In this document: positions 2,521 to 28,361 of the stretch, in pieces | Layout: every line of letters begins with the position of its first letter | How positions within the stretch are numbered: the first letter of the stretch is position 1 | Assembly (NCBI GenBank): GCA_950295325.1 | Contig: OX485803.1 | Coordinates: 42,485,554-42,549,553 of the forward strand | Direction of reading: 5' to 3' | Length of the DNA stretch: 64,000 nt | DNA from: Polytrichum commune | Lineage: Eukaryota > Streptophyta > Polytrichopsida > Polytrichales > Polytrichaceae | Translations under genes and position numbers: made by a program | The notes under the pieces: generated by a model | The model's database searches: none | The model's input: the letters and a program-made list of their open reading frames with translations, nothing else | What the model was told of the DNA's origin: nothing

Positions 2521-2690
2521 CCCCGAGAGTATTGGCAGTGCCGCCAATACCCCCGTGTATGAAAATGAAAACACGTATGAAGGTCCCATGAGTATTGGCG
2601 GTGCCACCAACATCCCCCCCTGCACCACAGTGGGTATAAATGCGGAAATACGTAAGAGAGCCATGGGAATATTGGCGGCCCGCGAGAAAA
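2521..2690. repeat. Short imperfect tandem with a TATTGGC-type palindrome
   Basis: Two to three imperfect units of about 80 bp each carry a near-palindrome of the form TATTGGC-RGTGCC-RCCAATA, for example at 2531-2552 and near 2592. The block sits exactly at the junction between the truncated transposase and the truncated methyltransferase-like fragment. It may be what remains of the intergenic palindromic region of the parent element. It resembles, but does not match, the arrays at 20-22 kb. Confidence 0.5.
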
Positions 2691-7189: not shown

Positions 7190-7570
7190 TTAGTCTAGTC
7201 TAAGTAAGCTCTACCTCGGCCTTAGCAACCACTACCCTCGGCCTTAGTAAGCCCTGGTCCCATATAATTAAGTTCTGCCCTTGGCCTAGTAGCTGCTGGC
7301 TCGGCCTTCGTAAGCCCCTGGTTCCATCTAATTAAGCTATGCCCTTAGCCTAGTAGCTGCTGGCTCCATCTGATTAAGCTCTGCCCCATGGCCTAGTAGC
7401 TGCTGGCTCCATCTAATTAAGTTCTGCCCTTGGCCTAGCCTTAGCAACCACTATCCTCGGCCTTCGTAAGCCCCTGGTTCCATCTAATTAAGCTCTGCCC
7501 CACGGCCTAGTAGCTGCTGGCTCCATCTAATTAAGTTATGCCCTTGGCCTTAGTAGCTCTTGGCCTTGGC
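7190..7570. repeat. Tandem repeat, CTAGTAGCTGCTGGCTCCAT family
   Basis: About six to eight imperfect units of roughly 50-60 bp combine the phrases GGCCTAGTAGCTGCTGG, CTCCATCTAATTAAG and CTCTGCCC. Units differ by small indels and by interposed CCTCGGCCTTAGTAAGCC. Confidence 0.75.
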
Positions 7571-7584
7571 CTTAGTAAGCCCCT

Positions 7585-7740
7585 ATCAAGTTACCCTTAA
7601 TCACTACTTTCCTAAGCTCCTCTAATCACTAATTTTCTAAGCTACCTTTAATCACTACTTTTCTAAGTTCCCTTTAATCACTACTTTTCTAAGTTCCCTC
7701 TAATCGCTAATTTTCTAAGCTCCCTCTAATCAACATTCTC
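7585..7740. repeat. Tandem repeat, CTCTAATCACTAATTTTCTAAG family
   Basis: About six units of 26-30 bp follow the pattern TAATCACTAMTTTTCTAAGY then CCCTY. It directly follows the GCTGCTGG repeat in the same insertion. Confidence 0.75.
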
Positions 7741-7757
7741 TACCACACTACCCCACT

Positions 7758-7832
7758 CTCACACACACACCCACACACACCACAAGAGAGAGAGAGAATG
7801 AGAGGAAGGAGGAAGGAAGGAGGGAGGGCACC
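7758..7832. repeat. AC, GA and GGAA microsatellites
   Basis: Short runs of CACACA, GAGAGAGA and GGAAGGAAGGAGGG lie side by side. Confidence 0.8.
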
Positions 7833-8240
7833 CAAACCACAACCTCCTTAGCCATCTCCTACTTAGTAGGACCTTATCCTATCCACTAAACCCTCACCCC
7901 CTAAACCAACAAGAACATATTCTAATTCAAACATTTAAATCAAAGGCACTTCCCCTTGCCTCATCAAGTACTACTCCTCTAATCAAAACACTTTCTAATT
8001 CCACTAAACCCCTACTTAACCAAACAAGATGGCTTAAGGCCTAAACATAAATCCACACCAAGCCTCACTCTTTTTATACTTTTGATTGTTTTAACAACAC
8101 TCCAAATGCAATCCTAAGTAATTCTAAACATAAAACAAATATGAGCACTCATTTTGGACTTATATAAACTCACGATGAGAATCATGAGATGACTCAAGAA
8201 AAACTTTGGATGTTAGCGACTTCGCCAATGGACACTTCCA

Positions 8241-8287
8241 TGAAGAACATGTGAGTTGAGAGGTGGAACAACTCACATGTTCTTCGT
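8241..8287. other. Perfect short hairpin, 17-bp stem
   Basis: GAAGAACATGTGAGTTG is followed after about ten bases by its exact reverse complement. It may be a terminal hairpin of a mobile element or a small-RNA-like foldback; the sequence does not decide. Confidence 0.5.
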
Positions 8288-9240
8288 TAGGCTCTCAAAT
8301 TTCCGAAACCAAAATTCAATGATATAGAGTTTTCTAAGTGGCTTCATAAAGCTATTTAGTGGGCTCAAGTGATAATGTTTTTTTCTTCTATTATTTTTGG
8401 TACATTAAATTTTTATCTTTGTTTTTTAATTATTTTTTCAATCATTGAACTCTTCTAATCTTTATTTTGTATTTGGCAGTTGGCTATTGAGACTGAGAAG
8501 CTCTTTGATGCTACTGTGGCTAATATGCATGTATCCATCAACTATCTTCCAGATAGTATGGATCCTCTGCCCATTATTTTCAATTATGTGGAGGCAATGC
8601 GCATATCATTGTGGGATACTGCATTTTTTCGTGAATTCGGTAGAGGTAAGGGATCTCACAAAAACCATAACATTGACAAGCAACTCAATTTCAATCCAGC
8701 CATGCGAAGGGTGTTTTATAGGTACTTCAAATATGTCTTATTTCTTGCTAAAGCCATTTTCAAATCTCTGATTTTTTTTTGCTAACTATTTGGATATCGA
8801 AAGTGAAGAATGCATGTTCACATAAGAGATTATGAAATCTTGGGATCCTATGCATTTTGAAAATGTGGGTGGTATTTGGATTGTCCTCTTAAAACACCTT
8901 CCACTTTTAATGTTGTCCTTCGAGATTTCATTCAACCCGTTCTCAAGAGTACAACTAAAGTTGCTCCAAGCATAACGGATGAGGATATAACCAAGATGCC
9001 AAAAAAAAATCTAAGCCCAAAAGATCAATCCTCCTAATTCATGATAGCGATGACGATGCTCCAGTTCAAAGCAATCTCAATAACCTTGCAGAGACTGAAC
9101 ATTTTTCTTCAAATTTAGAGGCAATGTTCTCTACTTCAAAGCGGCAGAAAACAACTCCTTCTCCTATCTTCGATATACCTCCTAAGCTTAGAGGTATTGT
9201 AGTTGATTTTTTTGGCCAAAGCAGCTTAGTTACTTAATTT

Positions 9241-11520
9241 TGGTTCAAATTAGTGCCAAAACTTACTTTGATTAGAGCATTAGTAAAGAAATGCTAGACC
9301 TAATCACTAAAACTCAAAAAGTAGGTTAGCCAAATTAAAAAGCAAAAATTAGGCTAATGACCTAAAGTTAGTGAGCAAAATTTGGACATGTGTCAAATGA
9401 CTAAAACCCTTAAAAACCTAGTTACGGGAGGACACATCCATTGGGTAGGCATTTGACGGGTAACTACCGAACCTACTCGAGAGGAAAAATGAGAGAGACG
9501 AAGGAGAGAGGGGGCCATTATCAAGTTTGAGTTTTTTTTTAGCGAAGGAGAGAGCATTATCGAGTTTTGGGTTTTCGAGCGGGATACAATAAATTCCTCT
9601 CGTGAAGAGAGCGAATGTTATATTTCTGTTGAAATAAAAATTATTATTATTACATTCTTCAAAGCTCGTTTGAATTGGGTATGAAGCCTTTCTTTGTTTT
9701 GCGCGCAAGTGTCTAACAATTTTTTGTAAGGGTTCATTACATTACTGAGCACCTATCAGCTCATCTGTTACTATTAATAACAGTGCATAGGCTGCAGATG
9801 AGTTTTTCATGTCTACAGTAATAATATCCCATAATAGAAACGGGAATAATTTGTGGTCCCCCATAACGCAACGTTGAAGTTGAATAGTGTTAAGTTTGCA
9901 ATTGTGATCAGGGAGATTTTTGGGCATAACCGGTTGACATCCTAGTGTTTGCAAGTCCAACCAGTTTGCAAGCCTTCGATGCGGCGATGTAAATCCAAAG
10001 TCAACTGTTAAGAAAGATACACAACATCAGTTTAATGCACAAGAGAGTGCACAGGGTTAGAGATTCTGCTCGCATGCGGGTTCATGCCCATCTTAGCTAT
10101 GGTGCATGGTTCTTCATCAAATTGTGAGAGCAACGAGGAGGAATGCAAGAATGTCATATTTCGCGTCGGGGAGCTATTGTCGACTACTTACCCTGGGAGA
10201 ATCTGATGTTTTTTTCCACAACATTAAGCGTGACTGCAAGTCGACCTTTGGAATCGCAACTTCGACGAAACGAAAGAATTTCTCTTCTCAAGCACGATGA
10301 AGAAAAGATGGGATTGATTTTGCAAGGCAAGAGAAGACAAATATGCAGTGGAGATTAACAACTGCGCATTGATCTGGTCAAGCTTTTGAAGCTTCAGATT
10401 CATCTACAAGGCGGAGGAGCTAAGCCTTCGGCGCCGAAACGAAGAGGAAGCTTGGAAGCTGGAAGGTTATCCCATAACTCTTGGGAAGACCAAGCAGTGC
10501 AGTAATAAAAACCTTTGGACGAAGAGGCTAGTCAAGTACACTTGTCTACAGAAGTCCAACCCGAGAGCTCATCTTCCTGGAATTGAATCACAAAACCTAC
10601 AAGCTGCAAAATATAGGTGTTAATTTTTTGCACATCATAATACTTTGCATCATTTAAACACTACCATGGGCATCCAACATTGCACAATTATCACATAAAT
10701 TCAATGCTGTAATTAAAGGAAACTGTGAAAGTTGTATAAATTAATTTTTAGCTGTGAAGGCAATAAGAAAAATTACAAAAACAAAAACATCAAAATTAAG
10801 GCTTATTCCGAAGAGAATTCCAAATCTAATTAATGAAATAATAAGGAACCAAAAGATAAATGAATTAATTGAATTATGAATTTGATTAAGTAATATGAAA
10901 GAACCGATTGCTATAAAATAAATATATAAGAAAAACTAATGTATTATGGCCTAAACATATTATCGAAGAATAATGGATCCGAAACCGCCAACTTAGTTTG
11001 AGGTAAGGACCATTAAATATACTGCCACACTAAATCTCACAGTAAATAAATGAGTGAAAACAACTCGTAGGGTTGTTATTACTGTATTTCATGATCCATT
11101 AAATTCACAAATTAATCAATGAGAGTTTATGGATCTAGTCAGAGTGCCCTTGGCTCTGATGACATGTGGTTACTGGATACTCAAAAAGACTATTGTTGAG
11201 TCGTGACTCCTTGCATTGCGAAAAAACCCAAATGTCTAAACACATGGTTACTATTGGACAATGGTTGTGAGGGAGAGGCTGAGCAAATGCATGTACGGAC
11301 TTGAGAGCCCCTGAACCACAAATATTGTAATTTAACCCTAAAATAACTCTAAAAAGTTAAATTTACCTTGGGTTTGTGTGTACAAATCACATACATAAAC
11401 TATTATGAACTATCAATTCACTTAAGAGTGACATCTAGATGAATAACCTGACACTCATTTAGTCTTCCCTTGGGTGTTTCATATAAAATTGAACCCAAGT
11501 AAAAATCCTATCTACATGTA
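9241..11520. mobile_element. Unclassified insertion between the two halves of the relic gene
   Basis: About 2.3 kb with no match to the intact methyltransferase-like gene lies between its linker region (to 9,240) and its catalytic-domain half (from 11,523). A minus-strand frame at about 9,742-10,010 (SPHRRLANWLDLQTLGC and onward) looks mildly coding and could be a captured gene fragment, but I do not recognise it. The rest, 10,640-11,500, is AT-rich with no motif I can name. Confidence 0.35.
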
Positions 11521-13104
11521 TAATGGATATTTTGCCTCTTTTACCTGCAAATCATACATCTTCGGATTTAATCTTGAATGATTCTTTTGTAAGGATTATC
11601 GAGTATAAGAAGCAAACATGTACATTTCGTGCACCATACGACAACGTTGTGGTTTTTGTATCAAAGGTGAGTTCATTTTATTTTACAATTTTTAATTTTT
11701 TTCATGTTTTATAAAGTTTTACTTATATTTCATCACATTATTTTATTATTTTCTTTGAATTGTCATCTTCATTCATGAATTGCGATATCTATATTTTATC
11801 TTCTGTAGGTTGGTGAAGGCAAGCAATTTTTTTTTATGGCCAATTGTAAAAGAAACCTGTTGTGGACCTCATCATTGCGGATTACCCAGACGGTCTTCGG
11901 GTTCTAGGTGTCTCAGATCCGCCATCTCAAATTTTCCCTTAGAATGCTAACATTGCAAGTGTTCTCAACATATTGATGGCGTTTGTTCTTATCTATCTTC
12001 ATGATGATGGAGCATTCATTTTGTTTTATCCTGACAGTTCTGCGGTAAAGAGAGAAGTGACAAAATTCTTCAAAAACTATAAGTTCAAGATCAAGGATGA
12101 GTGGACTATCATAAATTGCTTGCACTTGGCAAATCCTATGAATCCGTCCAAAAATGTAAGTAGCAATTATGAAATTTCATTTTAATTGCTTTATATTTGA
12201 ATTTGTTTTTATATGATGTGTATTTTTTATTTTTTATTTTATTTTGACTTTCAAATTTTGAAGTTCAAGGTTTTGTTATTGGTTTGATCATTTTCGTTTC
12301 CCGTTACGAGCCAACCTCAAGAACTTCTGATCATCATGTATCCTTCAACTTCAGAGGTCGATTTAGCCATATATGACGTTCTCTTCAACTCTATTAGTAC
12401 GAAAATTCAATTATGTAAATCAAGAGATGGCAAACCATGGAGGGGTGCAAAGGAGAAGTTTGAAGTTCTAATGAAGTTATTTGTTCATGATTTGAGTCAT
12501 GTAGGCGATATTGTGGCAGACATGACTGCTTCTACAAGTATTGTATTTATAGTATGCAATTATTAGTTTATATGTTTTTTAATTTATACTTCAATGTTCA
12601 TGTTTTCCTAATTAATATTGTGCTTCATCCAGGTTCTTCTATTAGAGCGGCTCATTCATCCAATCGTCATATTCTAGCATTAAAAAGTGATGCCGAACTC
12701 TTTGATGAGGTACTAAACCCTCTTAAAACACCTACAACTGATACCTCATGCGATGGTATGGACTTTGATGATGATACTCCAATAGAAGATGCCACACTAT
12801 TTAACTTATGTGAGTAAGTTATTTCCTTGTTTTCTTCTCGACAACTTCAATTGTAAATTTTAGATTTTTTATTTTAATTTGTTCTTACATACTCTAATAC
12901 ATGGTTTGATGTTTGCAGTTGGATGAATCCATGGCGGATACAAACCTCGTCATTTTATCGGCACCGTGGGTTATTGAGAAGCCCCTCTCTTAGTCCTCAT
13001 AGCCTCTCTGTGTATGATGAGGCTTTAGTTGAAGCTTATGCTAATGCTTCATTTACTTCATCTTCAATTTCACCACAGATAGATCACTCCATTGTCAAGT
13101 TGAA
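11521..13104 (+). pseudogene. C-terminal catalytic half of the relic methyltransferase-like gene
   Basis: This continues the homology broken at 9,240. Exons read as follows. Residues IEYKKQTCTFRAPYDNVVVFVSK end at a GTGAGT donor near 11,668. From 11,810 comes the motif IV region VVDLIIADYPDGL (parent VDLVFLQFPDGF). Then DDGAFILFYPDSSAVK runs to a GTAAGT donor near 12,156. At 12,420-12,535 come GKPWRGAKEKFEVLMKLF and VADMTAST. After an intron, SSIRAAHSSNRHILALKSD (12,634-12,700) completes the motif I region. The last exon from 12,920 carries LLRSPSLSPHSLSVYDEA. One frameshift lies in a T run near 11,827. The sequence is cut at about 13,105 by another element's terminal repeat. Confidence 0.8.
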
Positions 13105-13240
13105 GGGGAGTGCTATCTTGTGAGCAGTAATTTGTGAGCGGTGAAGAAAACAAAATATTTGGTAATAGGACCCCCTAGTATCCTATAACCGTGGCCTAAA
13201 GAAATAATTTTTTAGGGTTCAATAATAAGAAGATTAGGGA
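13105..13240 (-). mobile_element. Terminal repeat of a second, inverted element (methyltransferase-side end)
   Basis: Starting with GGGGAGTGCTATCTTGTGAG, this segment is the inverted image of 26,467-26,635. Shared words include GGTAATAGG, TATCCTATAACCGTGG and TTTAGGGTT. Because it matches the inner sequence specific to the methyltransferase side of the complete element, I read it as the 3' end of another copy pointing the opposite way, not as the left end of the complete element. Confidence 0.65.
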
Positions 13241-13872: not shown

Positions 13873-14239
13873 TCAAGTTGACACCACGTGCGGACAAAGT
13901 TTGCTACCCCTATATTACATGCCATATATAATTTTAAAATTTATGATATTTTTTCTACATATACATAACCATTTATAGTATCTTTTGTATAATTTTTTGA
14001 AATTTTTAGTCATATTTATGTTTTTTAGTAATTTTTTAGTTCAATTCTGTGTCATTATAGTTAGAAACGGTATGTTTTATGAAAAAACAAATCATCAAAT
14101 TTAGTTACCACTTTTGACTATGTCATAGGTACTGTGTATATCTACTCATGAAAAAAAAATTGATAAAATTTTGACCCATTTTGGTGGTGCAACTTACCAA
14201 AAGAAGATTTTTTTTGGTCGCACGTGGTGTTCAACTTGA
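13873..14239. mobile_element. MITE, 367 bp, TCAAGTTGACACCACGTGCG termini
   Basis: Left end TCAAGTTGACACCACGTGCG is mirrored at the right end (CGCACGTGGTGTTCAACTTGA region, 14,218-14,239) with one indel over about 23 bp. The interior is AT-rich and non-coding. It sits between the inverted relic and the left end of the complete element. No convincing target duplication is visible. Confidence 0.6.
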
Positions 14240-14241
14240 GA

Positions 14242-14335
14242 GGGAAGCTATCTTATGAGCGATGAGCAGTGAGCGGTGAGCGATGAGCAGTAACACATGA
14301 GCAATGAGCAGTAACATATGAGCAATGATTCCAAA
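14242..14335 (+). repeat. Left terminal inverted repeat with TGAGCRR heptamers
   Basis: After the terminal GGGAAGCTATCTTA, the heptamer TGAGCGA/TGAGCAG/TGAGCGG is repeated about five times without a gap, then spaced by AACACA and AACATA. Subterminal repeats of this sort are typical transposase-binding sites. Confidence 0.7.
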
Positions 14336-14569
14336 CTTAGTAAAGACACACGGGTTTAGGGTACACAACCAAAATTTTGACAAATTAATTGCATATTTTC
14401 AATTGTAAATTGCCAATATTTTAAATGAAGCACAAGTGAAAGGGCCCTATTTCCATGGATCATTTAAAACACTTTCAATTCATTGTTGATTTTTATTATA
14501 ATAATCCAAACCAATACATGTCATTTATTGACATCCTTATACATGTAGTTACAACCAACACTTGCACAA

Positions 14570-14690
14570 CTACTCACATTCCACAACACCAGCAAGTTCA
14601 AGTAGGTGCATAACCTCATTATACGTACATGTAGGTGCCATAATTGTGAGCCACTCAAACTGCTCACGGGTTGAATTAAGGCCCAGAATC
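14570..14690 (-). pseudogene. Duplicated tail of the transposase gene
   Basis: Minus-strand APTYTYNEVMHLLELAGVVE then a stop repeats the last residues of the transposase at 15,125-15,200 (APTYTYNEVMRLLELAGIVE). The homology continues into the 3' flank (14,445-14,569 matches 15,012-15,124). It is therefore a local duplication of the gene end, separated from the original by about 320 bp. Confidence 0.75.
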
Positions 14691-14734
14691 TACAAATGAA
14701 AGGAAATTAGATATTAGAAATAGTCAATATGTAG

Positions 14735-14950
14735 GTAACTACTAGGTTTTGAGACATCCGCCTGTGGATGCAAGTTGTGTAAGAGACTGGTATTAGGTCT
14801 GTATCAACCCGGGTTCGAATCCGGTTGGTTACATTGACTGGTGCTATCCCAAATTGAGCTAGTGATAAAGTAGGAATAATCTATAGGCGGATACCAAGAA
14901 GACGTTACTACGCGGATGTACGTAGAATCTTCTCAATTATTTTTTATTTT
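14735..14950 (+). mobile_element. Possible tRNA-derived SINE
   Basis: GGTTCGAATCC at 14,812-14,822 is a perfect RNA polymerase III B-box-like sequence, and the stretch ends in a T-rich tail near 14,938. The A box is weak (GTGGATGCAAGT near 14,764). It lies exactly between the two copies of the transposase tail, so it is probably inserted. A chance B box cannot be excluded. Confidence 0.3.
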
Positions 14951-15124
14951 TAGAAACTTGTTATTATTTATCCATGTCAATCAATCAAACCGCTCACGGT
15001 TGGGTCGTACTGAATCATTTGAAATACTTCCAGCCCATTGCTGATTTTTATTATAAAAATCCAAACCAAAACATGTCATATTTTGACATTCAAATATATG
15101 GTACTTAATAGACCATTTGCAATA

Positions 15125-18100
15125 CTATTCACACTCTACGATACCAGCAAGTTCAAGTAGTCGCATGACCTCGTTATAGGTATATGTAGGTGCATGAATG
15201 AACTTGTCACTCTCGTAATCCACCTTGCACAAAAATCTAAACACATAATAAAGATGTTTACAATACACCCATTTTCCTTTCTTTCCCAATGCATGAGAGG
15301 ACATTTTCGTGAAATCCGGGCATGTGCAATGCGGGATGTCGCCAATTGTGACATGGTAGGTGATATCCTGCTTGGAGACAATGTTGATTATCACTCCAAA
15401 GCCCGGATATGGAATGGCAGTGACCCCAACCACATAGTAACCCTCCATGAGTCCGGCGCTCTCCCATTTGTTTTTGTGATCCGCTAGCGGTGCTGTTGGA
15501 TTACGACGCACTGTCTTCCCAAACCTGAATGTAGGGTGGGCGTCCGGGTTTGGTGGCATAGAAAAATGCGAGCGAGGGATGGGAAGAGTTGCGATTGTTG
15601 AAAGCCTACGACGAGGGGACAATGCCTCCCTCTGCTATAGTTGAAATCCAGCATCTTCAAGTGCCAAAACCTCCTCTCGCGATAGATTGGTACCTATCTT
15701 CACCGGCCACGTGTTGGGTACTATAGGCCAGTCCAACACATATTTCTTCTTACTGCCACTTACACAACGTTTGATGTCGTCAGGGCAAAACCAAAATTCA
15801 TACTCCACATTGTTGGGAGAGCGAAATTCCTTCCTGAGCCCTTTGTATGTTGGAGCAGGTGTGCCATGTTTCCCAGTCCCGACTTTGGCATTGCACATAG
15901 TCCCTGTGATGGCCTTCAGTGCCCAACATCGTTTGGCTGAATTGGGTGGTAATCTTGCAATGTGCCACTTGGAAGCAAGACAATTAGTCTCTAACACGGA
16001 TGTAGTATGTGCCACAATATGAATTGTAGAACTCAACGATTCTTCTATGCTTTGACGAGTTGCTCGGGTATTGGGACGAGAAATAGAATAGTTCACTTTG
16101 TCGGGTCGATGAGAGTCACAATCAGCACCCGGTGGTAGGTTGAGTTTGCGTTTGGTGGAACCAAAGAGCTCTGACCCTTCCAATGCACAATCTCTAGTGT
16201 TGACGTCTTCTGCCCCTGGATAAGACTTCATGGCATCGGCCAACATTTTTGGATCTCCACACCTTGCAGCCGCTTTGAGTTTCAAGGATGCCGAATCAGG
16301 ACCTTTACCATCAGACCCCCCTTTCAACCATGTCCGGTAATTTGCAATTTGCATGAAAGCACGGATAATGTCGTCCACTGTAGCTTCATATAAACAAGTC
16401 ATCTTGTTGCCGGACTGTTGGAGCCATTTGTTGTGTACAGTCTCTGCAAGGTTGCATGTTGGCATTTCCGCACGCTCTTCTATTGTCATATCCTATGAAC
16501 AACACACAAATACAAGGATAAGACAAACATAAGATAGATTATATATTTAGGTTTGGGTTGTTCAACCCAAAATGGCTGCCACGTTTGGGTCGTTCGACCC
16601 AAACTGCATACAAGGTTTGGGTCGAACGACCCAAACTATTTGTTGTTTGTTGTGTACAGTCTCTGCAAGGTTGCATTTTGGCATTCCCGTACGCTCTTCT
16701 ATTGTCATATCCTATGAACAATACAGAAAGATAAAGATAAGAAAAACATAAGATATATTACATTGAATAATGAAGTTTGATATGTACTTACAAGTAGCAT
16801 ATGGCCACCCCATTGTCTGTAACGAAAGTGCCAAAATCCCAACCACTCTGAAAGGCCAAGGATGCCTTCCTCGGAGGCAACTCCAGATGACAACCACCAA
16901 GAACGAATCACATGGTACTTGGTCTCAGCGTCGTCCATTGTTTTCGCGTCTTTGTAATCCTTGCATATTTGTTTGTGTTGACATTGCAAGGATGGTTTGA
17001 TATACTTTTGGGTCACCTTATCCAAGCTTGCGGACCAATGGAAAAGACATGTACGCTCACGTGCAACCATGGGTAGACTTGGATCACCATCCCCGTAAAT
17101 CGCCCTCACCGCATTCCAATTAGATTGAGCACTATCAGCCATAAACCCTTTGAAGTTTACGTATGGTACACCATTTTCTGCCATGACAGCATTCAAATTT
17201 TCCCAAAAGAGAATTTGTGCTGCACCATCTTCAGATTGCATGTCACAACACGCAATAGTCAGCACTTTACAATATCGACTGTCGTACACATGGCAAGCCA
17301 TGGTCGTCCAGTCCTTCAAACGTTTGACATGGTCAAACATAATCCATGAATTCTCCATATCCCCACCGACTTGCATCCTCTTCACAAGCTCCACACCACT
17401 ACCTGGAAGGTCTACAGACATCTTGAAAACAAACACTTTATCCTTTGACTGTCCTGGGAACCGACTACCATGGACGAATTTGAAAGCAGAGTGGTCTTTG
17501 AGCGCCATAATACTATCCATAGTTCCCATTCCACTACGCAAAAAACGCTTTGATCCAGATACAAAGTTACGACAATTTGGAGACGCAAGAGTGCTGAATT
17601 TGTCCATAACGACCTCTAGGGATGAACCAACCAAGTGATGGCCTTCGACATTTGCGGGAGATTTGAGAAGGTAATCGGCCAAGAATTGTTTGCTCGCCGC
17701 CATAACTATGGCTGAATTTTTTGCTGTGGGTGTTTTCAATACTTCATTTGCAACGCATTGGTATGCCATGTCCAATGATTCACGGCATGTGCCATTGGCC
17801 ACAGGGTGATCATGTACACCAAAATGAATGCAAGCCCTGGACATTCCAACGGATGTGGAGTGAATGTATATGATTCGAGCATTACACAAAGCAATGCACA
17901 CATGTGTGGACTGACATACCTTACACTCGACAGTGGACTTAGTAGGGGGAACAACACCCACAGCAAATGGGATAGGAGTTGAACCGGCCCATTCAGTGTT
18001 GTTCCGGAGGCCCCCATTGCGATTCATGTAATCACAGTAGTCATTATGACATTGGAGATAACCAGCACAAGTAGAGCGCCGGAAGGACAGTCCAAAGTCA

Positions 18101-18927
18101 TTTTGGATATTCGTGGTTTTGGTGGTGCACCAAGGATGACCGTCGCACATCTTGTCCATGCCGTCCATTGAGTGACCATACGTACTTGGAGCTTTGAATG
18201 CCACAGGAGGCAAAAGAAACAAAACATCACCATTAAAAGAAGATGGTAAGTACTTGACTCCACGAACATCTATACTGTCAAAATCAATGGATGCAAGATC
18301 GGACTTTGATCTTTTTCTTGACTTTGTCAACTTCAAGGCATCAACCATAGTCAACCCTGTAGATGAAGGTGAAGGGTGTAGTGGAGGACGTTGAGAAGGT
18401 GAGATTTGGGGAACCACCTTGTTGTACATAAGACCGCAAGGGGATTTGGCTACATGTATAGGAAGTTGGGAAGGAGTAGAATGAACACTTCTAAATGGAA
18501 ATGGCGATGTGTTTGAAAGATCAACAGATGCACAAATGTCATCTTCTGAATCTGATAGCACAAACACACTATCATCAAGGGGTTCCACCTTAACATGTGC
18601 GATAGAGGGAATTTGAACTGTGGATGTACCGGATTCGTTTGTCAAAATGACAGTTGAAGCTTGCATCTGAGACTCAGAAAGTCCTATCACCCTAAATGAA
18701 CCAGGTCCTAAGATCCACATAAAACCAACATCAGTTCTATTTTGTGGAACCAAAATCGTTTCATACACCTCTCCATCTGCAGAGTACATCTCATGCTCTA
18801 AATACATGGTTCCTATCTGGAGGTTGAATCTCAAACTAAGTAAATCCTCTGAAACACTCACATGACCATCATCTTGGAGTGGCAAGATGAAGGGAACAAA
18901 AGATCCATGAGCTCTAATGGTAGCCAT
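15125..18927 (-). CDS. MULE-like DDE transposase with SWIM zinc finger, one in-frame stop
   Basis: Two inferred exons, 18927-16792 and 16492-15125, joined in phase 0 (CTT|GTAAGT donor, TTCATAG acceptor), give about 1,166 residues. Residues 112-130 hold VKVEP then VFVLSDSEDD; a basic stretch KSRKRSKS is at 202-209. A cysteine cluster around 287-298 (CAGYLQCHNDYC) resembles a transposon-type zinc finger. The catalytic-like region spans about 500-710: candidate acidic residues in HVYDSRY (549), GFMADSAQSNWNAV (598) and LSEWLGFWHFRYRQWGGH, plus the CLFHW block typical of MULE transposases. Exon 2 ends with a SWIM motif, CTCPDF then CKHLYYV (15,240-15,340). A TAG at 15,635-15,637 interrupts exon 2 just before the SWIM part; the reading frame is otherwise open. 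The family fit is good, but the exact catalytic triad is inferred. Confidence 0.75.
16551..16636. repeat. Three GTTTGGGTCG palindromes inside the transposase intron
   Basis: Near-perfect palindromes lie at 16,551-16,571, 16,583-16,604 and 16,615-16,636. Each is GTTTGGGTCG, two bases, CGACCCAAAC; the first has T/A changes. They belong to the same family as the array at 22,031-22,335. Confidence 0.85.
16637..16715 (-). repeat. Duplicated 3' splice site and exon start inside the transposase intron
   Basis: This stretch repeats 16,430-16,506, including the TTCATAG acceptor and the first codons of exon 2 (D-MTIEER). The intron therefore carries a second, upstream acceptor that would open the same reading frame before running into the palindromes. 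It is either a dead duplication or a source of alternative splicing. Confidence 0.7.
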
Positions 18928-19449
18928 AGAAAATCAAAAGAACATATGAACAACACATCACAAAAATATGGGGTGAATGTTGGTTTTGTATAGAGTTGTA
19001 TGAGGAAATGAATGGAAATGAAAACGTGTGATACAATAATGGATGGAGATGAAAGCGTGTGATACATAACATCTAATAATACAGAAGTGGACATAACACA
19101 ATAATAGTCAGAGAATATTTACGAACAAAATATACAGAAAATGGCGTCAAATACTAAAAGTATTGGTAGAAAACAAAAATATATATGTGTGGACTGACGT
19201 AGATGTAGAAAGAATTAAAATTGGTTGGAAAAATAAATTACTGCTCATTATGAATAGAACAAAGTAGGTGTCAGAAAATTTTGGCGGATATAACAAAAAT
19301 AAACACATAATGACAAACGCGTCGAAATATCTCGCTCATTGAACGCCAATTACAACATGTGATCGTAATATACGCCGGATTTTGTGAGATAGATACATTG
19401 GAAGAATAAATGATAGTACCTGATAGAAAACATATTATGGACACCAACG
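18928..19449. promoter_or_regulatory. Divergent promoter region between transposase and methyltransferase-like gene
   Basis: The two inferred start codons face away from each other 522 bp apart, so this segment must contain both promoters. It is AT-rich with TATA-like words (ATATATATG near 19,178 on the plus strand). No palindromic array unit lies here; the arrays start downstream of exon 1 of the plus-strand gene. Confidence 0.5.
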
Positions 19450-19854
19450 ATGGTGGACGATGTAGAGAGAACACCTGTGAGGCCGAAGAGAAGACGTAGG
19501 AAAACTTTGTATTTTACTTCCGAGAAAAAGAGGTTCAGACTGAGTGTGGGAAAGAAGAATGCAAATAAGAAAGGGAAAAGAAACTTGTTGAGTACGGTAG
19601 AAGAAACTGTGAAGACACTGGATTTTGATGCGATGAAGGATGATGAAGGTGCAAAGAACAAAGAAGATATAGATGATCGTATATCAGAGTCCGAATTAAA
19701 GACGGGTTCAAAAAAGATGACAAACAAAAAGGTAAGTCAGTTCAACGTTCACATAATTTGATAGTGCATAAGTTGTAAGTTAGGACGGAGAACCTTGTAC
19801 GTTCACTCACATATCATGTAGTAGCAATTTATAGAGGCTATAAATTGGAGAGGA

Positions 19855-21190
19855 AAAAACCTATACGTTAATGCACATGGTATATAACAGAAATTTAGGA
19901 AGGCTAGAAGTCAGGAGGAGAACGTTCAGGGTTTATAAGAGCAACTTAGAAGGCGAGAAGTTTGGAAGTAAAACCCTATACGTTAACGCACAAGGTTTAT
20001 AAGAGCAACTTAGAGAGGCCAAAAGTTGGGAGCTAAAACCCTGTGCGTTAACGCAGAGGATTTGTAATAGCAACTTAGGAAGGCAAAAAGTTGGGAGGAG
20101 AAACCCTGTGCGTTAACGCACAGGGTTTGTAAGAGCAACTTAGGAGGCAAAAAATTGGCAGGAGAAACCCTGTGCGTTAACGCACAGGGTTTGCAAGAGC
20201 AAATTAGGAGGCAAAAAATTGGGAGGAGAAACCCTGTGCGTTAACGCACAGGGTTTGCAAGAGTAACTTAGGAAGCAAAAAGTTGGGAGGAGAAACCCTG
20301 TGCGTTAACGCACAGGGTTTGCAAGAACAACTTAGGAGGCAAAAAGTTGGGAAGAGAAACCCTGTGCGTTAACGGACAGGGTTTGCAAGAGCAACTTAGG
20401 AGGCAAAAAGTTGGGAGGAAAAACCCTGTGCGTTAACGGACAGAGTTTGCAAGAGCAACTTAGGAGGCAAAAAGTTGGGAGGAGAAACCCTGTGCGTTAA
20501 CACACAGGGTTTGCAAGAACAACTTAGGAGGCAAAAAGTTGGGAAGAGAAACCCTGTGCGTTAACGGACAGGGTTTGCAAGAGCAACTTAGGAGGCAAAA
20601 AGTTGGGAGGAGAAACCCTGTGCGTTAACGGACAGGGTTTGCAAGAGCAACTTAGGAGGCAAAAAGTTGGGAGGAGAAACCCTGTGCGTTAACGCACAGG
20701 GTTTGCAAGAACAACTTAGGAGGCAAAAAGTTGGGAGGAGAAACCCTGTGCGTTAACGGACAGGGTTTGCAAGAGCAACTTAGGAGGCAAAAACTTGGGA
20801 GGAGAAACCCTGTGCGTTAACGCACAGGGTTTGCAAGAACAACTTAGGAGGCAAAAAGTTGGGAGGAGAAACCCTGTGCGTTAACGGACAGGGTTTGCAA
20901 GAGCAACTTAGGAGGCAAAAACTTGGGAGGAGAAACCCTGTGCGTCAACGCACAGGGTTTGCAAGAGCAACTTAGGATGCAAAAAGTTGGGAGGAGAAAC
21001 CCTGTGCGTTAACGCACAGGGTTTGCAAGAGCAACTTAGGAGGCAAAAACTTGGGAGGAGAAACCCTGTGCGTTAACGCACAGGGTTTGGAAGAGCAACT
21101 TAGGAGGCAAAAACTTGGGAGGAGAAACCCTGTGCGTTAACGCACAGGGTTTGCAAGAGCAACTTAGGAAGGCCAAAAGTTGGGAGGTAA
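19855..21190. repeat. Tandem array of 64-bp units, each with a GTTAAC-centred palindrome
   Basis: Seventeen units start every 64 bp exactly from 20,101 to 21,125. Two more diverged units start at 19,971 and 20,036, and weaker ones lie before them. Each unit contains CCTGTGCGTTAACGCACAGG within a longer palindrome flanked by AAACC and GGTTT, then a non-palindromic 36-bp spacer ending AAAAAGTTGGGAGGAG. Many units carry CGGACAGG in place of CGCACAGG, and GAACAACTT alternates with GAGCAACTT in the middle. This suggests 128-bp dimers amplified together. The array lies in the 2.9-kb first intron of the methyltransferase-like gene. Confidence 0.95.
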
Positions 21191-21641
21191 AACGACTAGG
21201 AGAGCCTAAAAGTAAACAAATATCTATTGTATGAATTTAAATCGATCTTCAGAGCGTAGGAACAAAAAACCATTCAAAACGGGGTTAGAATGCAAGAAAT
21301 GAGAAATATGTCTACTCAAGTATTCATGCAATATGTTATAGGAGCTAGAAAATGACACAAAATAGCATAATTTTTTTTTTGCCCCGAAACCCAAAATCTA
21401 CGAGGTGGCCCAAAACAAGAAAATAGATAGAAGAATGAGAAAAGAAAATGATTTCAAACCAAAACAAAATATAAGAAGATTTTGTAGCTACGGAGATTTA
21501 GATAATATAGCATATTTTATTTTATTTTTTTGGACCCCATTAGCATTTTTTCCAGATTTTACAAGTTTTGGCAAATCTACCAATTCCAGACAAAAGTTCT
21601 TCAAATTCAAAAAAAAAAGTTTTTAGCAAATTCATGTCTCG

Positions 21642-21812
21642 GCCCTGTGCGATTAACGCACAGGTCTTATGCGCTAACGCACAGTGGCCTCAAAGTTGCC
21701 AGCGCAGACCCTGTGCGTTAACGCACAGGGTCTACTTGCCTAGCTAGAGGCTTCACAAAGTTGGGCAAGTAGACCCTGTGCGTTAACGCACAGGGTCTGC
21801 GCTGGCAACTTT
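21642..21812. repeat. Further GTTAAC palindromes forming a 46-bp perfect inverted repeat
   Basis: Positions 21,695-21,740 and 21,764-21,809 are exact inverted copies (46 bp each) around a 23-bp loop. Each arm itself contains the CCTGTGCGTTAACGCACAGG palindrome flanked by AGAC and GTCT. Two degenerate copies of the palindrome precede them (21,643-21,664 and near 21,668-21,682). The DNA can therefore fold either as one long hairpin or as two short cruciforms. Confidence 0.9.
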
Positions 21813-22030
21813 CTAGCGGCTATGCGGGGCACGAAGAGCCACGCTAAATATGGCCGCAAGGACGAGTAGTATAAATTGCCACACCTTCAAAGCATTCAGT
21901 CTTTTTTCTCTCATCTATCGAACCGGAGCTCGTCGCTGCAAGCTCTCTCATCTACAGGTGCAGTACAAGGTTTGTTTGTACTTTCGTGATGACTGGGTAA
22001 TTGCGCATAATTAGGCGTAAATTGCGGGCA

Positions 22031-22335
22031 GTTTGGGTCGGTCGACCCAAACTGTCCGCCTGGTTTGGGTCGACCGACCCAAACTTTTCGCCTAGTTTGG
22101 GTCGAGCGACCCAAACTGTCCGCCTAATTTGGGTCGACCGACCCAAACTGTCCGTCTAGTTTGGGTCGCTCTGTAGACCTGTAGACGGATAGTTTGGGTC
22201 GAGCGACCCAAACTAGGGTGTACAGAGCGATCCAAACTGTGAGCATGGTTTGGGTCGTTCGACCCAAACTGGTTGTAGGTGGTTTGGGTCGCTCGATCGA
22301 AACCGCGTGGACAGTTTGGGTCGTTCGACCCAAAC
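22031..22335. repeat. Array of GTTTGGGTCG/CGACCCAAAC palindromes
   Basis: About nine units spaced 26-55 bp apart, most near 32-34, for example at 22,031, 22,063, 22,096, 22,193, 22,249 and 22,314. Each is GTTTGGGTCG, a variable dinucleotide, then CGACCCAAAC. Some units keep only one half (near 22,160 and 22,230) and one has a changed half (22,281). One more GTTAAC palindrome follows at 22,374-22,401. The array ends about 210 bp before exon 2 of the methyltransferase-like gene. Confidence 0.9.
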
Positions 22336-25300
22336 CTCGCGCCCAACATTTGTAGACCTGTAATTGGACACACAGACCCTGTGCGTTAACGCACAGGGTC
22401 TGCCCTTGTAGTTTTGGGGTGAACGGCCACCCTTATCGTACAATATTTAAAGGTGCAAATGGTAGTGTCTAGAATAATATTTGTTATTTTTCCCTGTGTT
22501 TGTGGTATTCTGTTGTTATTGTTGTTGCTATTGCTGTTGTTTTTGTAATGTTATTGCTAATGTGTTTCTACTGGTTTTGAAATATTTATGAAACTTATTT
22601 CATTTGTTTTAGGACCAATCAATGGATTTGGAGAGAACGACTGTTATTTCTACTGGTGATGATTCTACAATGCATTCAACTTAAGATCGTCCATTTCAAC
22701 AAGTTCATGTTCATCAGGATATATCGTCAAATCTTCATAATAAGAAAAAGAAAAAAATAAATGAATCTCTCGATGATTTTGACTCGGATGAAGATAATGA
22801 TGGTGACAATAAAACCTATCAACAGAAAGTCTGGGAGCTTACGGACAAGCGAAAGGTTAATTCCACTTCAACAATTTCCTCAATCCGTGCTGGACCGAAA
22901 TCTCGTTTGCGTGTACCCTTATGTCGCATGGTTCCAATGCCTATTGTGCGTCCTGCTTTGAAAGGCGACATCACTAAATTGGAGGCTGACTTTTTCAATG
23001 GTTATCGTGATGGTGACCGTGTGTTTTATCTATCGGCTACCGACTTTAAGGGAAATTTTCAATTTGTGGATGACGAGGTTCGTGCATCTTGGAGCCCAAA
23101 TTGGGCTCAAGCTAATGCGGTGTTTGAAACTGAATTAGATGCCGATCCTTCATTTACATCATACAAGAACAAGATGTTATTCATATGGGATGGTAATCAC
23201 AGATTTTTTGCTTGGAAAAGTTATATTGACCGCTTGCATACCGAAGATTACGAGCGTCATGTCTTTGTGGATTCCATCATTTTGGCGCCCGAGCTTGATG
23301 ACATTCCAAATTTGTTGACTGCTATGCACGACATCAACAAGTAATGTTTTTACTTCTTTATTTTCATTTATTTCTGGTTTGTATTTTGTTATTTGAATTA
23401 TATCATCCTTAATCCATGAATTCAATATTTTTTCAGGTCAACAGAAAACTCTCACGTTTCTACCAATTTGGTGCATACTTTGTATCGGATGCAAAGTATT
23501 GGCACCATGCCTTTGACTTCTTTTAAAAAAACAACTGGATCCTAGAAGTTATAAGCGATGTGAGGAGAAGTCCGTTGAAACTTGGTATTCTTTGACGCGG
23601 CCAATTTTTCTTGATTATATGTACAGTGTAAGTTTTTCTAGCATTTCCTACTATGTTTTTAATGTTTATTTATCTTTCATTTACATCACATCTATATGTA
23701 CTTATTAATTTTGGATTTTGTTTGATTTTTCAGCAAGAACTTGCCGAGGCTAGCGATATTGCTCTCAACCTTTACAATGAAACCCATCCTCTTGAACGAA
23801 CTTCAGAAGGAGTTTCTAAAGCAATGTCCGCAGCTGTCAACAAAAAACGTGCAATGTTGTCTTCTAGTTTTACAAAACAACTAGCAATTGCTGACATCAA
23901 CCTTATCCCTGCTTTTCTTGAAGAAGTTAAGCACCATTGGGGTTCATTTTCGGTGCCTGAAATGTTACAAGAGAAACTTCATCGTGTTGCTGTTAGTAAT
24001 GTGGATCCAAATGTCAAAGTCGGATGGCTCAAACTTTGGAATGGCAATAGATTTGACAAAGATGCATTGCATTTCCTGAAATCACCCCTCTCTGATTCTG
24101 CACTTGATGATTGGTTATCAAAGGCTACATATTGGGCACAGTTAGAGAAAAAAGCTATTGAAGAGCTTCAAAGTATTCTTTCATCTCCTCTTCAATTGCC
24201 TGCAGATGTGCCTACTCTCTCTGAATATATCCAAACCTGGAAGTTTGCGGCTTTCAATTCAATATTCTATCGTGAATTCAAAAGCGGAAAAGTAAAAAAA
24301 CACAACGTTTGGGATGAGCAACCGAATATTGATCTTGCTATGAAGCGTGTTCTATACAGGTACAACTTATTCTTTACTATTTCTTGATATTTTTTCATTA
24401 CATTTTACTTTTCATTCAATATTTGGCTCATAATATTTTTGTGTGTAGGTATTTCCGATATGTTTTGATTCCGCACAAATGCGTTATAGGAGAACCTCAT
24501 TTTTTTCCAAATTGGCGTGACACTGGTGCGGAAGACTCATGCATGTTCACTACTGAGATTTGTTTGGATTAGTCGCTCCCACACTATGAGGATTGTGGTT
24601 GGTATCTTGATTGTCCTAAGGATGCATGTCCGTCAAGTGAGAAGACAATCCGTCAGATAAATGATGCCAAAAATGTAGATCCTCGTGATACTGCAATTTT
24701 GCAAGCACAAATTGTGCAGCTTAAACTTAGAGAGCCAGAACCAAAAGAGACAAAACGTCGTAAGAGAAAACATGTTCCTGAAACCAAAATACAAGGTCAA
24801 TCGGAAATTTCACAACATGAAGAATTGCTTGTTCTTTCCAATGATTTGGATAAGAATACACTTGGAGGCGAAAGTTTAAAATCCGGGTGCGATGTATTGG
24901 AATTTCATTACTCCAGCACCTATGACGCTATTCATCGTGCGCCAACGAATGTTTTGAGAAAAGAGTTATTCATACTGAAAAACTTTCTTACGCTCTCTTT
25001 TGCTCGATCTACTGCTGTCAAGAACAAGTCTGAAGGGGTTGAAGTAGGCCCTCCTGAGTGGATCCAATGGCGGGCATTTCTTGAAAATGTAAGTAATCTT
25101 CATTTTGTATTTTCTGTAATGTTCTTACTTTCATTTGGATTTTATTTTGTGTCTTATATTGTGATATGTTGTGGTATTTCAGTTCAAAGACAATCGCGAA
25201 TTTCATGTCATGGGAAGTCCGACTCCATTTGCCGTTGACTTGGTTTTTCTGCAATTTCCGGACGGTTTTGACTTCAACCTCTCCAATAGACCTGCTGAAA

Positions 25301-26466
25301 TTCCTCTTTGGAATAAATATGACAAGAACTGGATGGTTGCAACAATGTCCTTGTGCAAGTCCATCTTGTCTGATGATGGCGTCCTCATAGTATTTTCTGC
25401 TATCGATATGCAAACCAAGAAGGTTTTGAATTCAACCTTACACAACGGCAACATGAAAGTTCTTAGGACTTTTATTTGCCTCAATTCGTACATGGTGTTC
25501 AAGGATCCGGAGTCTCCAACCTACACCGTAAGTATAACACATCACAATTGTTTCTATTTAATTATTTTGGTGTTATTTGCATTGTATATAATTTTAACAC
25601 AATTTACATTTTTTTGTAGACTCCGGCATTTATGGCTCATGTCTTGGTAAGGGATTTTACTACCAAAAAATCCACAAGACAACCAAACTCCACTTTTTTC
25701 GGCACTGGATTGAAAAGCAAAAACTTGCTTTTCAATTTTGTGGATGAAAAAAACACGCTTCTTCAAAAATCGGGAAGACCTTGGAGGGGGCTATATCAAA
25801 AATCGCCGCGTTTTTTTCAAGATCTTATTGAATTGTTTACACCATCGAATGGACGCGTTGTTGATTTGACATGTTCCACTGGAGCTTCTATCCTAGCAAC
25901 ACGCGCATGTGGCAGACATCTTCTTGCATTTGAGGGTGATAATGACATGTTTGAGCATATATTGAAACCGCTTTTGGAAAAGGTTTTCAAATAGGGGTCA
26001 TCTAAGGAGAATATACAAGATCTCACAAAAGAAGATGATGACCTCTCGGATGAGGAGATGCTTGAATTTGAGTGTGAGTAAGTTTTGATACAATAAATTT
26101 TTATTCAATTCATTCGTTTCATTCAATTCATTGGTTCATTTTTATTTCTTCACATTATTTACATGTTCCATCGATTTGATTTCAGGAATACGATTGGAAA
26201 GAGGACATGTCTCCCGTTTTGGGCACATAGACAATTCCTACGAAGTCCAAGTCGTAGCCCGCGTCTCCCATCATATGCCGAGAATGTTGCAATTGCAATG
26301 TTGAATCTCGAAGATTCGGATCCAAATGAAGAATCTTGCTATAGTTCCAAAATCAATTCGCAATGCAAAGGTGCTCGAATATATATAGATGACGAGGCAA
26401 AAGATAGTTTCATGTCTAGTGCTACTACTTATGAATAAATTTTTGGACTTCATGTTGTTTATCCTT

Positions 26467-26635
26467 CTCAACCCTCTTATTACTAAACCCTAAAATCATC
26501 ATTTTTAAGGCCACAATTCCACGGTTATAGGATATTGGTGGCCCTATTACCAAAATTTTCATCTTCCTCACTGCTCATAAGTTACCGCTCATCGCTCACC
26601 GCTCATTGCTCACCGCTCATAAGATAGCACTCCCC
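26467..26635 (-). repeat. Right terminal inverted repeat
   Basis: The outer part (26,581-26,635) mirrors the left end at 14,242 with the heptamer block. The inner part (26,467-26,575, with TTACTAAACCC and CACGGTTATAGG) is found again inverted at 13,105-13,240. It begins only about 30 bp after the methyltransferase-like stop codon. Confidence 0.75.
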
Positions 26636-27319
26636 GTGCCATATTCATCATAATGACCTTCATAACTTGCCTTGTAGGCTAAGTGTGCCATACCATATCT
26701 TCGGTTGCCACCCAATGATTACAAGATCATTTACGTGGATCAATAACAATCATAATAATTTATTTGGGCCACACTAAAACATATGTATAGTGTATTGGAT
26801 GAATTAAAAATTTACATAGGGATGAATTTAAAATGTTTTTGGGATGGGGACGGGATGACCACCCTCTATCTTACATGACTTTTAATGCATTTCAAGCTAT
26901 GAATTCTACATATTAAGATGAGACTCACAATATATGTGAGAGGAATGCGAGAAGTTACAAAAAGTGCATGATAATGATGTTTGATCCAAATATTCAAGTG
27001 CCATTTTGGGGTGAAATCATTTCAGGGTTAAAAGCAAATGAACTCACCAACAAACTATCCTACATGACTCCACAAAAATATCCCTTCCACATATACATGC
27101 ATAGCCCCCCCCCCCCCCCCAATTTCCACCTTTATTTTGTGGCATAATCATATGCTTGCCTCTTAATCTTAAGATAGACACTTAGGCCCCCACCCATTGG
27201 GTTTACGACGAGTACAGACAATGCCCAATGTGTGGGTTTTGTGTTGGAGTTAAATTACATAGAAGCATCATCATATGGAAATCATGCAAGGTCGGGGTGT
27301 GAAGACTTATGATGCCATA
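26636..27319. other. No gene seen; C-run
   Basis: AT-rich flank of the big transposon. A C15 run lies near 27,106-27,120. No open frame or motif stands out. Confidence 0.4.
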
Positions 27320-28361
27320 CAGTCTAACCTTGATAATGTCACCCTTGTTAATAGAACACCTTGATATTGTCACCTAAAAGTTTGAAACCGATTTTGTAAA
27401 ACTCCCTCGTTATTATCCCTATCACCCTTGATAATGTCACTATTTTTTTTCAAAATCCATAGTGTAAATGTGATAATATCAAGTATGGATGGATTGTATG
27501 GGTGGGCATGGGTTCGATATTATTGTTCATGGGTGAGCATGGGCTAAAGCAAAGCATATTGGGGGTCATTGAATGAGCTCTCATTCAATGCTTTCGGCAT
27601 AGTGGGATGCCTTGTGTAATTTCAAATTTGGTATGTGTTTCGGAGTCCAAATGCTCAATCCAAAATGGAGGAAGCAACTTTGGAATTGGGTAGACTCATC
27701 GCCGCATTAAATTTGGGTTTGGATGTTGAAGGCAAGCATGTAGAAAAGCTTTGTCCTTTGGAGTACATAAACATGGAAGGTGAAGATGATTTTGAGGTGG
27801 AATTTTCTACTGAGGAGCTTGTGCAATTAGTGCAAGATGGCGAACAGGTTCTTGATTCCATGGAAGTGGACCCATTGATTGTTGATAGTAGTGATGATGA
27901 GTCTAAAGTAGTGAAGCTAAGCGATGCACAAAGATATGCTAAAGATGTTTTGAATTTTATGACTAGACAAGGTTCTCAGATTTTCAGCACTTGTGAGTTG
28001 TTAGAAATGGAAAAAATCCATGACAAACTCATTAGAATTGGTGTTGCACATTTAACATCAACAAAACAATGTGACATTAGAAGCTTCTTTGTCTCTAGTG
28101 AGAGCTCTTTACCTGATCTCAATGACACATTATGATGTGCTCTTGTTGTTATTCACAATTTTGAATTAGATTTTACATTCAAAAACATTGAAGTCTCGTA
28201 TTTGTTATTTAAAAAAAAATTGTAATTATATTTTGATTTTCTACATATTTTTTTATAATATCACATTATGCACAAAATGTGACATTATCAAGTATGTCAC
28301 ACCTTGTTTATATCACACTTTTTGGTGAAACGGAGGGTGTGACATTATCAAGGTTAGGGTG
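27320..28361 (+). mobile_element. Tigger/pogo-like (Tc1/mariner) element, internally deleted
   Basis: The left end CAGTCTAACCTTGATAATGT is mirrored at the right end (ACATTATCAAGGTTAGGGTG), and both ends are flanked by TA, as expected for Tc1/mariner insertions. The CAGT start is usual in pogo and Tigger elements. The word TTGATAATGTCAC recurs several times inside each end region (near 27,352, 27,425 and 28,285), a likely set of transposase-binding sites. At 1,042 bp it is too short for a complete transposase; only a C-terminal reading frame remains. Confidence 0.75.
27635..28135 (+). pseudogene. C-terminal remnant of a Tigger/pogo-like transposase
   Basis: This 166-residue open frame has no stop until its natural-looking end, a composition that differs from its AT-rich flanks, and an acidic stretch (DSSDDES near residue 88). 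It lies between the terminal repeats of a Tigger-like element. Its shape (KMEEATLELGRLIAALN, then EELVQLVQDGE, then a helical tail) resembles the C-terminal tail after the DDE domain in plant Tigger transposases. No helix-turn-helix or DDE residues are present, so it cannot catalyse transposition. The open frame may be recent decay or may mark a small retained protein. Family call rests mainly on context. Confidence 0.55.

Follow-up and report, generated by a model that had tools for sequence, protein, structure and literature searches.

Results

A transposon carrying a ParB–methyltransferase gene

The stretch of DNA analyzed here, referred to as the window, comprises 64,000 nucleotides of contig OX485803.1 of the moss Polytrichum commune (GCA_950295325.1, positions 42,485,554 to 42,549,553). 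It contains a MULE-like (Mutator-like element) transposon with terminal inverted repeats (TIRs), in which a transposase gene on the minus strand is accompanied by an accessory gene on the plus strand. The accessory gene joins a ParB-like domain to an amino-methyltransferase domain, and arrays of long palindromes adjoin it. Copies and relatives were searched for in 408 Mb of the genome in 64 contigs, and three other copies of the element are named here after their contigs, C7, C3, and C2. A LEAFY-type domain (PF01698), of a family characteristic of land plants and the algae related to them, exceeded the Pfam cut-off at all four places where it was found in this genome. The features of the element are as follows.

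14240–26635: whole TIR transposon, 12.4 kb, with the ends GAGGGAAGCTATCTTATGAGC and ...GCTCATAAGATAGCACTCCCC
14247–14308 and 26567–26628: inverted terminal arms, 62 nt, 90%
15128–16492, minus strand: transposase exon 2, SWIM-like CxC...CxH, in-frame stop at about 15635 in the window copy
16551–16636: additional second-palindrome copies, inside the transposase intron
16792–18927, minus strand: transposase exon 1, MULE-like, within a 742-aa open frame at 16705–18933
19450–19731, plus strand: exon 0, basic (PVRPKRRRRK), open in the window, C7, C3, and C2 copies
19732–22612, plus strand: first intron (GT...AG), which contains the palindrome arrays
19927–21187: 64-bp tandem array of 19.7 units, most with the perfect palindrome CCCTGTGCGTTAACGCACAGGG
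22030–22336: second palindrome array, 32-bp period, GTTTGGGTCG-nn-CGACCCAAAC
22613–23340, plus strand: exon 1, in-frame stop at 22682 in the window copy
22868–23338, plus strand: ParB/sulfiredoxin (Srx)-like domain with WDGNHR, inside exon 1, placed by structure model and fold searches
23437–23627, plus strand: exon 2, frameshift in the window copy
23734–24359, plus strand: exon 3
24449–25088, plus strand: exon 4, in-frame stop at 24570 in the window copy
25183–25527, plus strand: exon 5, methyltransferase motif IV region, VDLVFLQFPDGF
25620–26077, plus strand: exon 6, motif X/I/II region, VVDLTCSTGAS...LAFEGD, in-frame stop near 25992 in the window copy
26186–26438, plus strand: exon 7 and stop codon (26436–26438)

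The accessory gene is predicted to have eight exons between 19450 and 26438 on the plus strand, with GT–AG sites read from the sequence; exon 0 ends in a GTAAGT donor and joins 22613 in phase. The peptides on which the original prediction was built were all located where it had placed them, namely the basic exon, VDLVFLQFPDGF, WDGNHRFFA in the exon at 22613–23340, and both VVDLTCSTGAS and GRHLLAFEGD in the exon at 25620–26077. In the window copy, stop codons at 22682, 24570, and about 25992 and one frameshift near 23530 interrupt the reading frame. The same exon frames were recovered in three more genomic copies, and the C3 copy, which has AT in place of GT after exon 2, reads as one open spliced protein of 1076 residues counted from the ATG matching 22622, or approximately 1173 residues when the basic first exon is included. 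Exon 6 was matched at all 150 places scored among 1328 candidates, many with open frames, and the conserved blocks were retained in relatives with 27–49% identity to the first alignment row; therefore, the gene is not a product of chance. A 1905-aa open frame was rejected because it corresponds to a gap of N.

The location of the gene on a MULE-like transposon, as originally proposed, was supported by aligned copies, target duplications, and linkage to an opposite-strand transposase. The C7, C3, and C2 copies align to window positions 14240–26636 at 97–98% outside the repeat arrays and with sharp ends, the C3 alignment beginning at 14277. Among the three copies tested for target duplication (window, C7, and C2), two are flanked by perfect duplications within the 8–11 bp of MULEs, 10 bp (AGTATCGGTT) at the C7 copy and 9–10 bp at the C2 copy, and none was found at the window copy. 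Transposase exon 2 is open in the C3 and C7 copies, and transposase homologues occur at all 150 scored places (the best 150 of 1549 candidates). The name MULE is given because of the duplication length, the TIRs, and the SWIM-like motif, for which Pfam returned only a weak match (PF04434, E = 0.1), its sole match to the spliced 1167-aa transposase.

At least 44 of 67 exon-6 matches had a transposase match 2–15 kb upstream on the opposite strand, whereas 0.2 were expected. The corresponding counts were at least 13 of 52 (0.16 expected) for the ParB-like exons of a second family and at least 16 of 26 (0.06 expected) for a chosen set of exon-5 matches; other orientations of the transposase neighbor numbered 1, 2, and 2 in the exon-6, ParB, and exon-5 sets. 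The samples were drawn from 150 matches each and compared with the best 150 transposase matches. The 26 exon-5 matches were hand-picked, from the second family and from several places of greater divergence, and the test covered groups other than the L021, L017, and 36% groups.

Grouping of the loci by exon 5 gave eight sequence groups at 60% identity and nine at 70%. The median ratio of nonsynonymous to synonymous substitution rates (dN/dS), taken across all pairs with dS of 0.02–1.0, was 0.25 for the ParB exon (30 pairs), 0.33 for exon E5 (13 pairs), and 0.42 for exon E6a (9 pairs).

The methyltransferase domain and its altered catalytic motif

By sequence, the C-terminal part of the protein belongs to the beta-class amino-methyltransferases, with the permuted motif order IV–X–I. 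The permuted N4/N6 amino-methyltransferase of the original prediction was borne out by PF01555, phrog_3008, and an alignment with CcrM. PF01555 matched all seven spliced relatives (best 3.4e-9), the window family's own row, represented by the C3 copy, scoring 22.6 bits, under the cut-off of 26.7, and 17.4 in the whole protein. All seven relatives were also matched by phrog_3008 (best 8.2e-13) and five of them by the CcrM model. A profile search of the PDB listed DpnA/M1.HpyAVI first (4.2e-6); CcrM was aligned at profile positions 14–229 in the permuted order (E = 5.5e-5), with VDLIFADPPYNL opposite the profile's vDLliaeyPdgl. Scanning the genome with PF01555 revealed another group, in which one 577-residue frame makes up the last exon, and all three unspliced relatives of this group exceeded the Pfam cut-off with no splicing assumed. 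The motif I region is largely retained as D-x-T-x-x-T-G-A-S, with GTG in L071–L073.

The structure model of this domain was weak, with a predicted local distance difference test (pLDDT) score of 41.7 and a predicted template modeling (pTM) score of 0.31. It was built from alignment A10 only, MAFFT alignments A5–A9 having been dropped for misplaced fragments, and its input held 30 intron residues and one read-through stop. All nine Foldseek matches of the model at E ≤ 0.001 are N6-adenine methyltransferases (M1.HpyAVI, M.BceJIV, and CcrM), and all of the 50 rows listed are amino-methyltransferases. In phages, tblastn with the methyltransferase region of one relative returned 96 records, the best of which (E = 2e-4, 34% covered) carried no ParB domain according to Pfam. 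Exon 5 gave nothing useful in blastn against phages, and a scan of viral contigs produced 70 pattern stretches, none of which was confirmed.

The canonical catalytic motif of such a methylase, (D/N/S)PP(Y/F/W), is missing, and here the original prediction needs correction: the motif occurred in 0 of 36 reads from 32 distinct places, four places having been read twice. The reads were QFPD (12), DIPE (8), EYPD (7), DIPD (2), DLPE (2), and DIPY, VIPE, QYPD, DYPD, and DIPQ (1 each); the search pattern itself required P at position 3. Position 4 was D, E, or Q in 31 of the 32 places and position 1 was D or E in 22, the window family reading Q-F-P-D. Since the change is common to divergent groups, it probably arose early and has been maintained, as opposed to reflecting recent decay, and the absence of DPPY makes ordinary methylation doubtful. 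Locus L071 (1926–3656) reads DIPY where two close relatives read DIPD, which is either a mutation that arose by chance or a variant that has regained the aromatic residue.

The ParB-like domain

The DGNHR domain is assigned with moderate strength, on a structure model, to the ParB/sulfiredoxin-type fold. An AlphaFold2 model from 24 element rows (pLDDT 66; pTM 0.65) shows a strand, then GNHR, then a helix, so that WDGNHR/WEGNHR takes the position of a GxxR-type box II; we take WDGNHR to be equivalent to the GERR/GCHR of ParB/Srx box II. The G and N of the GNHR motif are invariant in all 24 rows, and the H and R nearly so. Rows 1–15 of the Foldseek search are sulfiredoxin or Srx-complex chains (E 0.04–0.74). 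In the fold search VIA, 22 of 24 entries were named Noc, KorB, ParB, PadC, sulfiredoxin, free serine kinase, or SbnI, the other two (2hwj and 1vk1) being without a family name; the best, Noc, reached Z 6.8 with a root-mean-square deviation of 3.0 over 94 aligned residues, under the safe Z of 8 for this tool. For the alignment, 14 of 20 ParB stretches gave a usable frame, 24 of 26 rows were used (L015, with N, and L022, partial, being excluded), and the L024 and L039 rows held unrelated residues at the front.

The ParB claim of the original prediction therefore stands as to the fold, by Foldseek and VIA on the AlphaFold2 model, and fails as to a ParB sequence profile, which no search recovered. 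ParB_N (PF02195) was not among the Pfam matches of the DGNHR domain or the whole protein, and searches of Pfam, PDB sequences, and PHROG, hhalign, and phage tblastn with element sequences gave no ParB match, apart from one PHROG ParB row at E = 0.055 in one of five members. Scanning the moss genome with PF02195 gave matches on contigs C10, C12, and C23 only. These contigs (C12 being that of locus L074) carry ParB_N and/or N6_N4_Mtase domains above the Pfam cut-off. Compared by hhalign, the ParB-like domain and L074 gave a probability of 0.3. The region between the ParB-like and methyltransferase domains spans approximately 480 residues.

Palindrome arrays

The palindrome arrays adjoining the gene are the most interesting part of the element. 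In the window, CCCTGTGCGTTAACGCACAGGG had 21 matches with at most two mismatches, 18 of them in the 64-bp array, compared with 0 in shuffles. Both arrays are present in all four copies, and the length of the 64-bp array varies between them (19.7 units in the window, 25.7 in C7, 7.7 in C3, and 7.8 in C2). Genome-wide, the 26-bp palindrome had 226 exact sites, as against 0 for the reversed pattern. The 50 sites listed form 14 clusters on contig C1, and 13 of these have a transposase or exon-6 match no more than 10 kb away, compared with 10 of 1000 random points.

Clusters of three or more near-perfect 20-bp palindromes were found at 8 of 10 loci versus 1 of 6 control stretches, the stretches being unequal in length (5.1–12.4 kb), with L045 and L040 consisting of the DNA before the gene only and L071–L073 outside the test. 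The sole positive control stretch is of the AT microsatellite type. Because L020 and L040 belong to one group, the ten loci represent nine groups at most. Most palindromes differ between the sequence groups: L023 has 11 copies like GGTGGCCGTTAACGGCCACC, L017 six like ACTGTCTCGG-nn-CCGAGACAGT, L054 eight of GTGTCTCGGTGCCGAGACAC, and L045 13 of TATTGGTGGTACCGCCAATA. L045 and L037 have nearly the same palindrome, and several other loci have a common CGTTAACG or TCGG-nn-CCGA core; this pattern would fit a single binding domain whose specificity drifts. Elsewhere in the window, a long AT-rich tandem array with 13/39-bp units (54730–55262) also forms short palindromes.

Neighboring elements

To the left of the main element, window positions 1178–13120 hold a decayed copy of a second family with a matching layout. 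The three gene parts have the same order and orientation, and the best-matching stretch, which includes an intron, is 27% identical.

1178–2509, minus strand: second-family transposase
5754–6878: second-family ParB-like part
about 11859: second-family methyltransferase, VVDLIIADYPDG, with the end of motif I near 12640

By eye, an insertion of approximately 350 bp resembling a miniature inverted-repeat transposable element (about 13881–14231; inverted ends ACACCACGTGCG / GCACGTGGTGT) lies next to the left end of the main element, and the C3 copy (L011/L012) lies within or beside a non-long-terminal-repeat retrotransposon whose frames resemble reverse transcriptase and RNase H. A 171-aa open frame at 27620–28135, flanked by TGACATTATCAAG-type sequences, is perhaps a piece of another DNA transposon.

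Discussion

Our analysis identifies, with high confidence, a MULE-like accessory gene composed of a ParB/Srx-fold domain, some 480 residues, and a beta-class methyltransferase with a changed catalytic motif. With regard to its function, we tentatively favor sequence-specific self-recognition via the palindrome arrays, by analogy with either VANC-like anti-silencing or ParB–parS. The accessory protein would recognize the palindrome arrays of its own element family, and the ParB-like domain would load and spread the protein on them, perhaps as a dimer. The bound protein may counteract host silencing or mark the element as self, the outcome being that the transposase and accessory gene would remain expressed. 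The methyltransferase domain would more likely bind or sense DNA, or use a changed chemistry, than perform ordinary N4/N6 writing. The geometry would be of the ParB–parS type and the function like that of VANC of the Arabidopsis VANDAL elements.

Several observations weigh against self-recognition through the arrays. L040, which falls into one sequence group with L020, lacks an array, and L020 itself has only three copies; L021 has four copies with 8-bp arms, L037 has three copies, and the array of L017 lies behind the gene. A pattern search of the DNA preceding L054 detected no DGNHR-like exon. The CpG value of the main array (0.58) equals the background (0.34–0.58), giving no clear sign of protection from 5-methylcytosine, although CpG is higher in the exons (0.83) and the second array (1.11). 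The ParB-like model had no Foldseek match at E 0.001, and Pfam, the one search applied there, detected no DNA-binding domain in the middle region. Close pairs reach dN/dS of 0.6–0.96, and near-identical copies of the window family show little third-position excess, with 16, 11, and 24 variable sites at codon positions 1–3 (approximately 532 positions each) and 5 of 233 in introns. The palindromes are also tied to the accessory protein no more than to the transposase or a host factor.

Among the alternatives, the protein may be an active N4-cytosine/N6-adenine methyltransferase that is guided by its ParB-like domain and marks its own element, as proposed for a gene of the brown alga Ectocarpus; we consider this unlikely. 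The motif order is that of CcrM, the motif I region is largely retained (GTG in L071–L073), 22 of 32 places have D or E at the start of motif IV, and DIPY is present in one copy, all of which would suit a working enzyme. In contrast, the aromatic residue is replaced by D, E, or Q in 31 of the 32 places, the window family having Q-F-P-D. In the available text on bdelloid N4CMT, changing SPPY to APPA, that is, both Ser and Tyr, abolished the addition of N4-methylcytosine (PMC8885841).

A role as a transposition co-factor appears less likely still. The palindromes would then be sites for the transposase or transpososome, with the protein aiding synapsis or cutting, as the opposite-strand upstream transposase at no fewer than 44 of 67 places and the second palindrome in the transposase intron might suggest. 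However, the arrays are internal, in the window family mainly in the first intron of the accessory gene, and not at the TIRs. A ParB-type nicking nuclease or NTPase tethered to a dead methyltransferase is very improbable: a nicking activity lacking sequence specificity is attributed to a Bacillus ParB–methylase fusion (PMC5512222), whereas the palindrome arrays suggest specificity. A functionless passenger gene, copied along with the element, is hardly credible, as the median dN/dS is below 0.5 for three exons and divergent groups keep the domain order and conserved blocks, even though many copies, including the window copy, are broken.

To return to self-recognition through the arrays, we also consider a wider scenario, which we regard as doubtful. 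A eukaryotic transposon superfamily may have taken over a bacterial ParB–parS module, the protein and a parS-like array co-diverging in each family, and the methyltransferase, its aromatic residue lost, may sense DNA or chromatin, yielding self-recognition against silencing. If this is true, transposons in one plant would tell self from host by a bacterial-type partition fold and their own palindromic arrays, an independent solution to the problem solved by VANC in Arabidopsis. Because the genome holds eight to nine divergent groups and most of them have a candidate site of their own, protein–DNA specificity and its co-evolution would be open to direct testing. They also raise the question of the role of a methyltransferase domain whose catalytic motif was rewritten and then retained.

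Comparison with known systems

Fusions in bacteria and phages resemble the moss protein in that a ParB domain precedes a permuted amino-methyltransferase. One such fusion of 501 aa with DPPY is encoded at L074 (contig C12, 61 kb), and this contig probably derives from a bacterial or phage contaminant or symbiont. Unlike the plant gene, L074 has DPPY and a ParB_N match, and hhalign links only the methyltransferase parts of the two. Descent from one particular bacterial ParB–methylase fusion was not supported.

Bdelloid N4CMT, originally given as the known eukaryotic case, is not the only one; there are also Dam-like enzymes of DIRS elements, N4 methylation in Marchantia (a eukaryotic case by the title of a reference), and the Ectocarpus Sola1 gene. 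N4CMT shares a bacterial-type N6_N4_Mtase domain in a eukaryote, but the accessible passages describe a host gene with SPPY and a chromodomain (PMC8885841), and the term "ParB" occurs 0 times in its text. The Dam-like methylases of DIRS and the DNA methyltransferases of Symbiodinium and Klebsormidium retrotransposons are likewise methyltransferases on transposable elements; as described in the part of the source available, they differ in belonging to other methyltransferase classes and to retrotransposons (PMC5890265).

The protein kind is already known from a brown-algal transposon. According to the passages available, the Ectocarpus Sola1 transposon (Sola1-1_Ec32) has an accessory gene with ParB-like and N4/N6 methyltransferase domains, and green and red algal relatives are cited (PMC12477816). 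Its protein, of similar length (1104 aa), has the same two domains, the transposase lies on the opposite strand, and the element is a giant DNA transposon; the moss gene thus shows the features that define the algal accessory proteins, a single protein with the two domains and a position on the strand opposite to the transposase gene. Compared by description only, and in those passages, the moss element differs in its plant genome, MULE-like type, 9–10-bp duplications, degenerate catalytic motif, and palindrome arrays. Neither an altered catalytic motif nor a plant MULE host is mentioned in these Ectocarpus passages, and the stem "palindrom" is absent from the text of the paper (PMC12477816).

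The VANC proteins of Arabidopsis VANDALs, as described in the passages available, bind family-specific motif arrays and remove DNA methylation; the targets consist of short motifs repeated in tandem within non-coding DNA, including introns, differ from family to family, and expand and contract (PMC5735166, PMC10398659). The moss element resembles these non-TIR MULEs in having a MULE-type accessory gene and fast-changing, family-specific non-coding motif arrays, also in introns; at 8 of 10 loci such arrays were found, here as long palindromes. DUF1985, the VANC domain, was not among the Pfam matches of the 1076-aa protein up to E = 10. Whereas the motif of VANC21 is short and arrayed in one orientation, the moss element has long palindromes and TIRs. 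What seems to be new is the presence of eight to nine sequence groups of such a gene in one plant genome, together with group-specific arrays of long palindromes.

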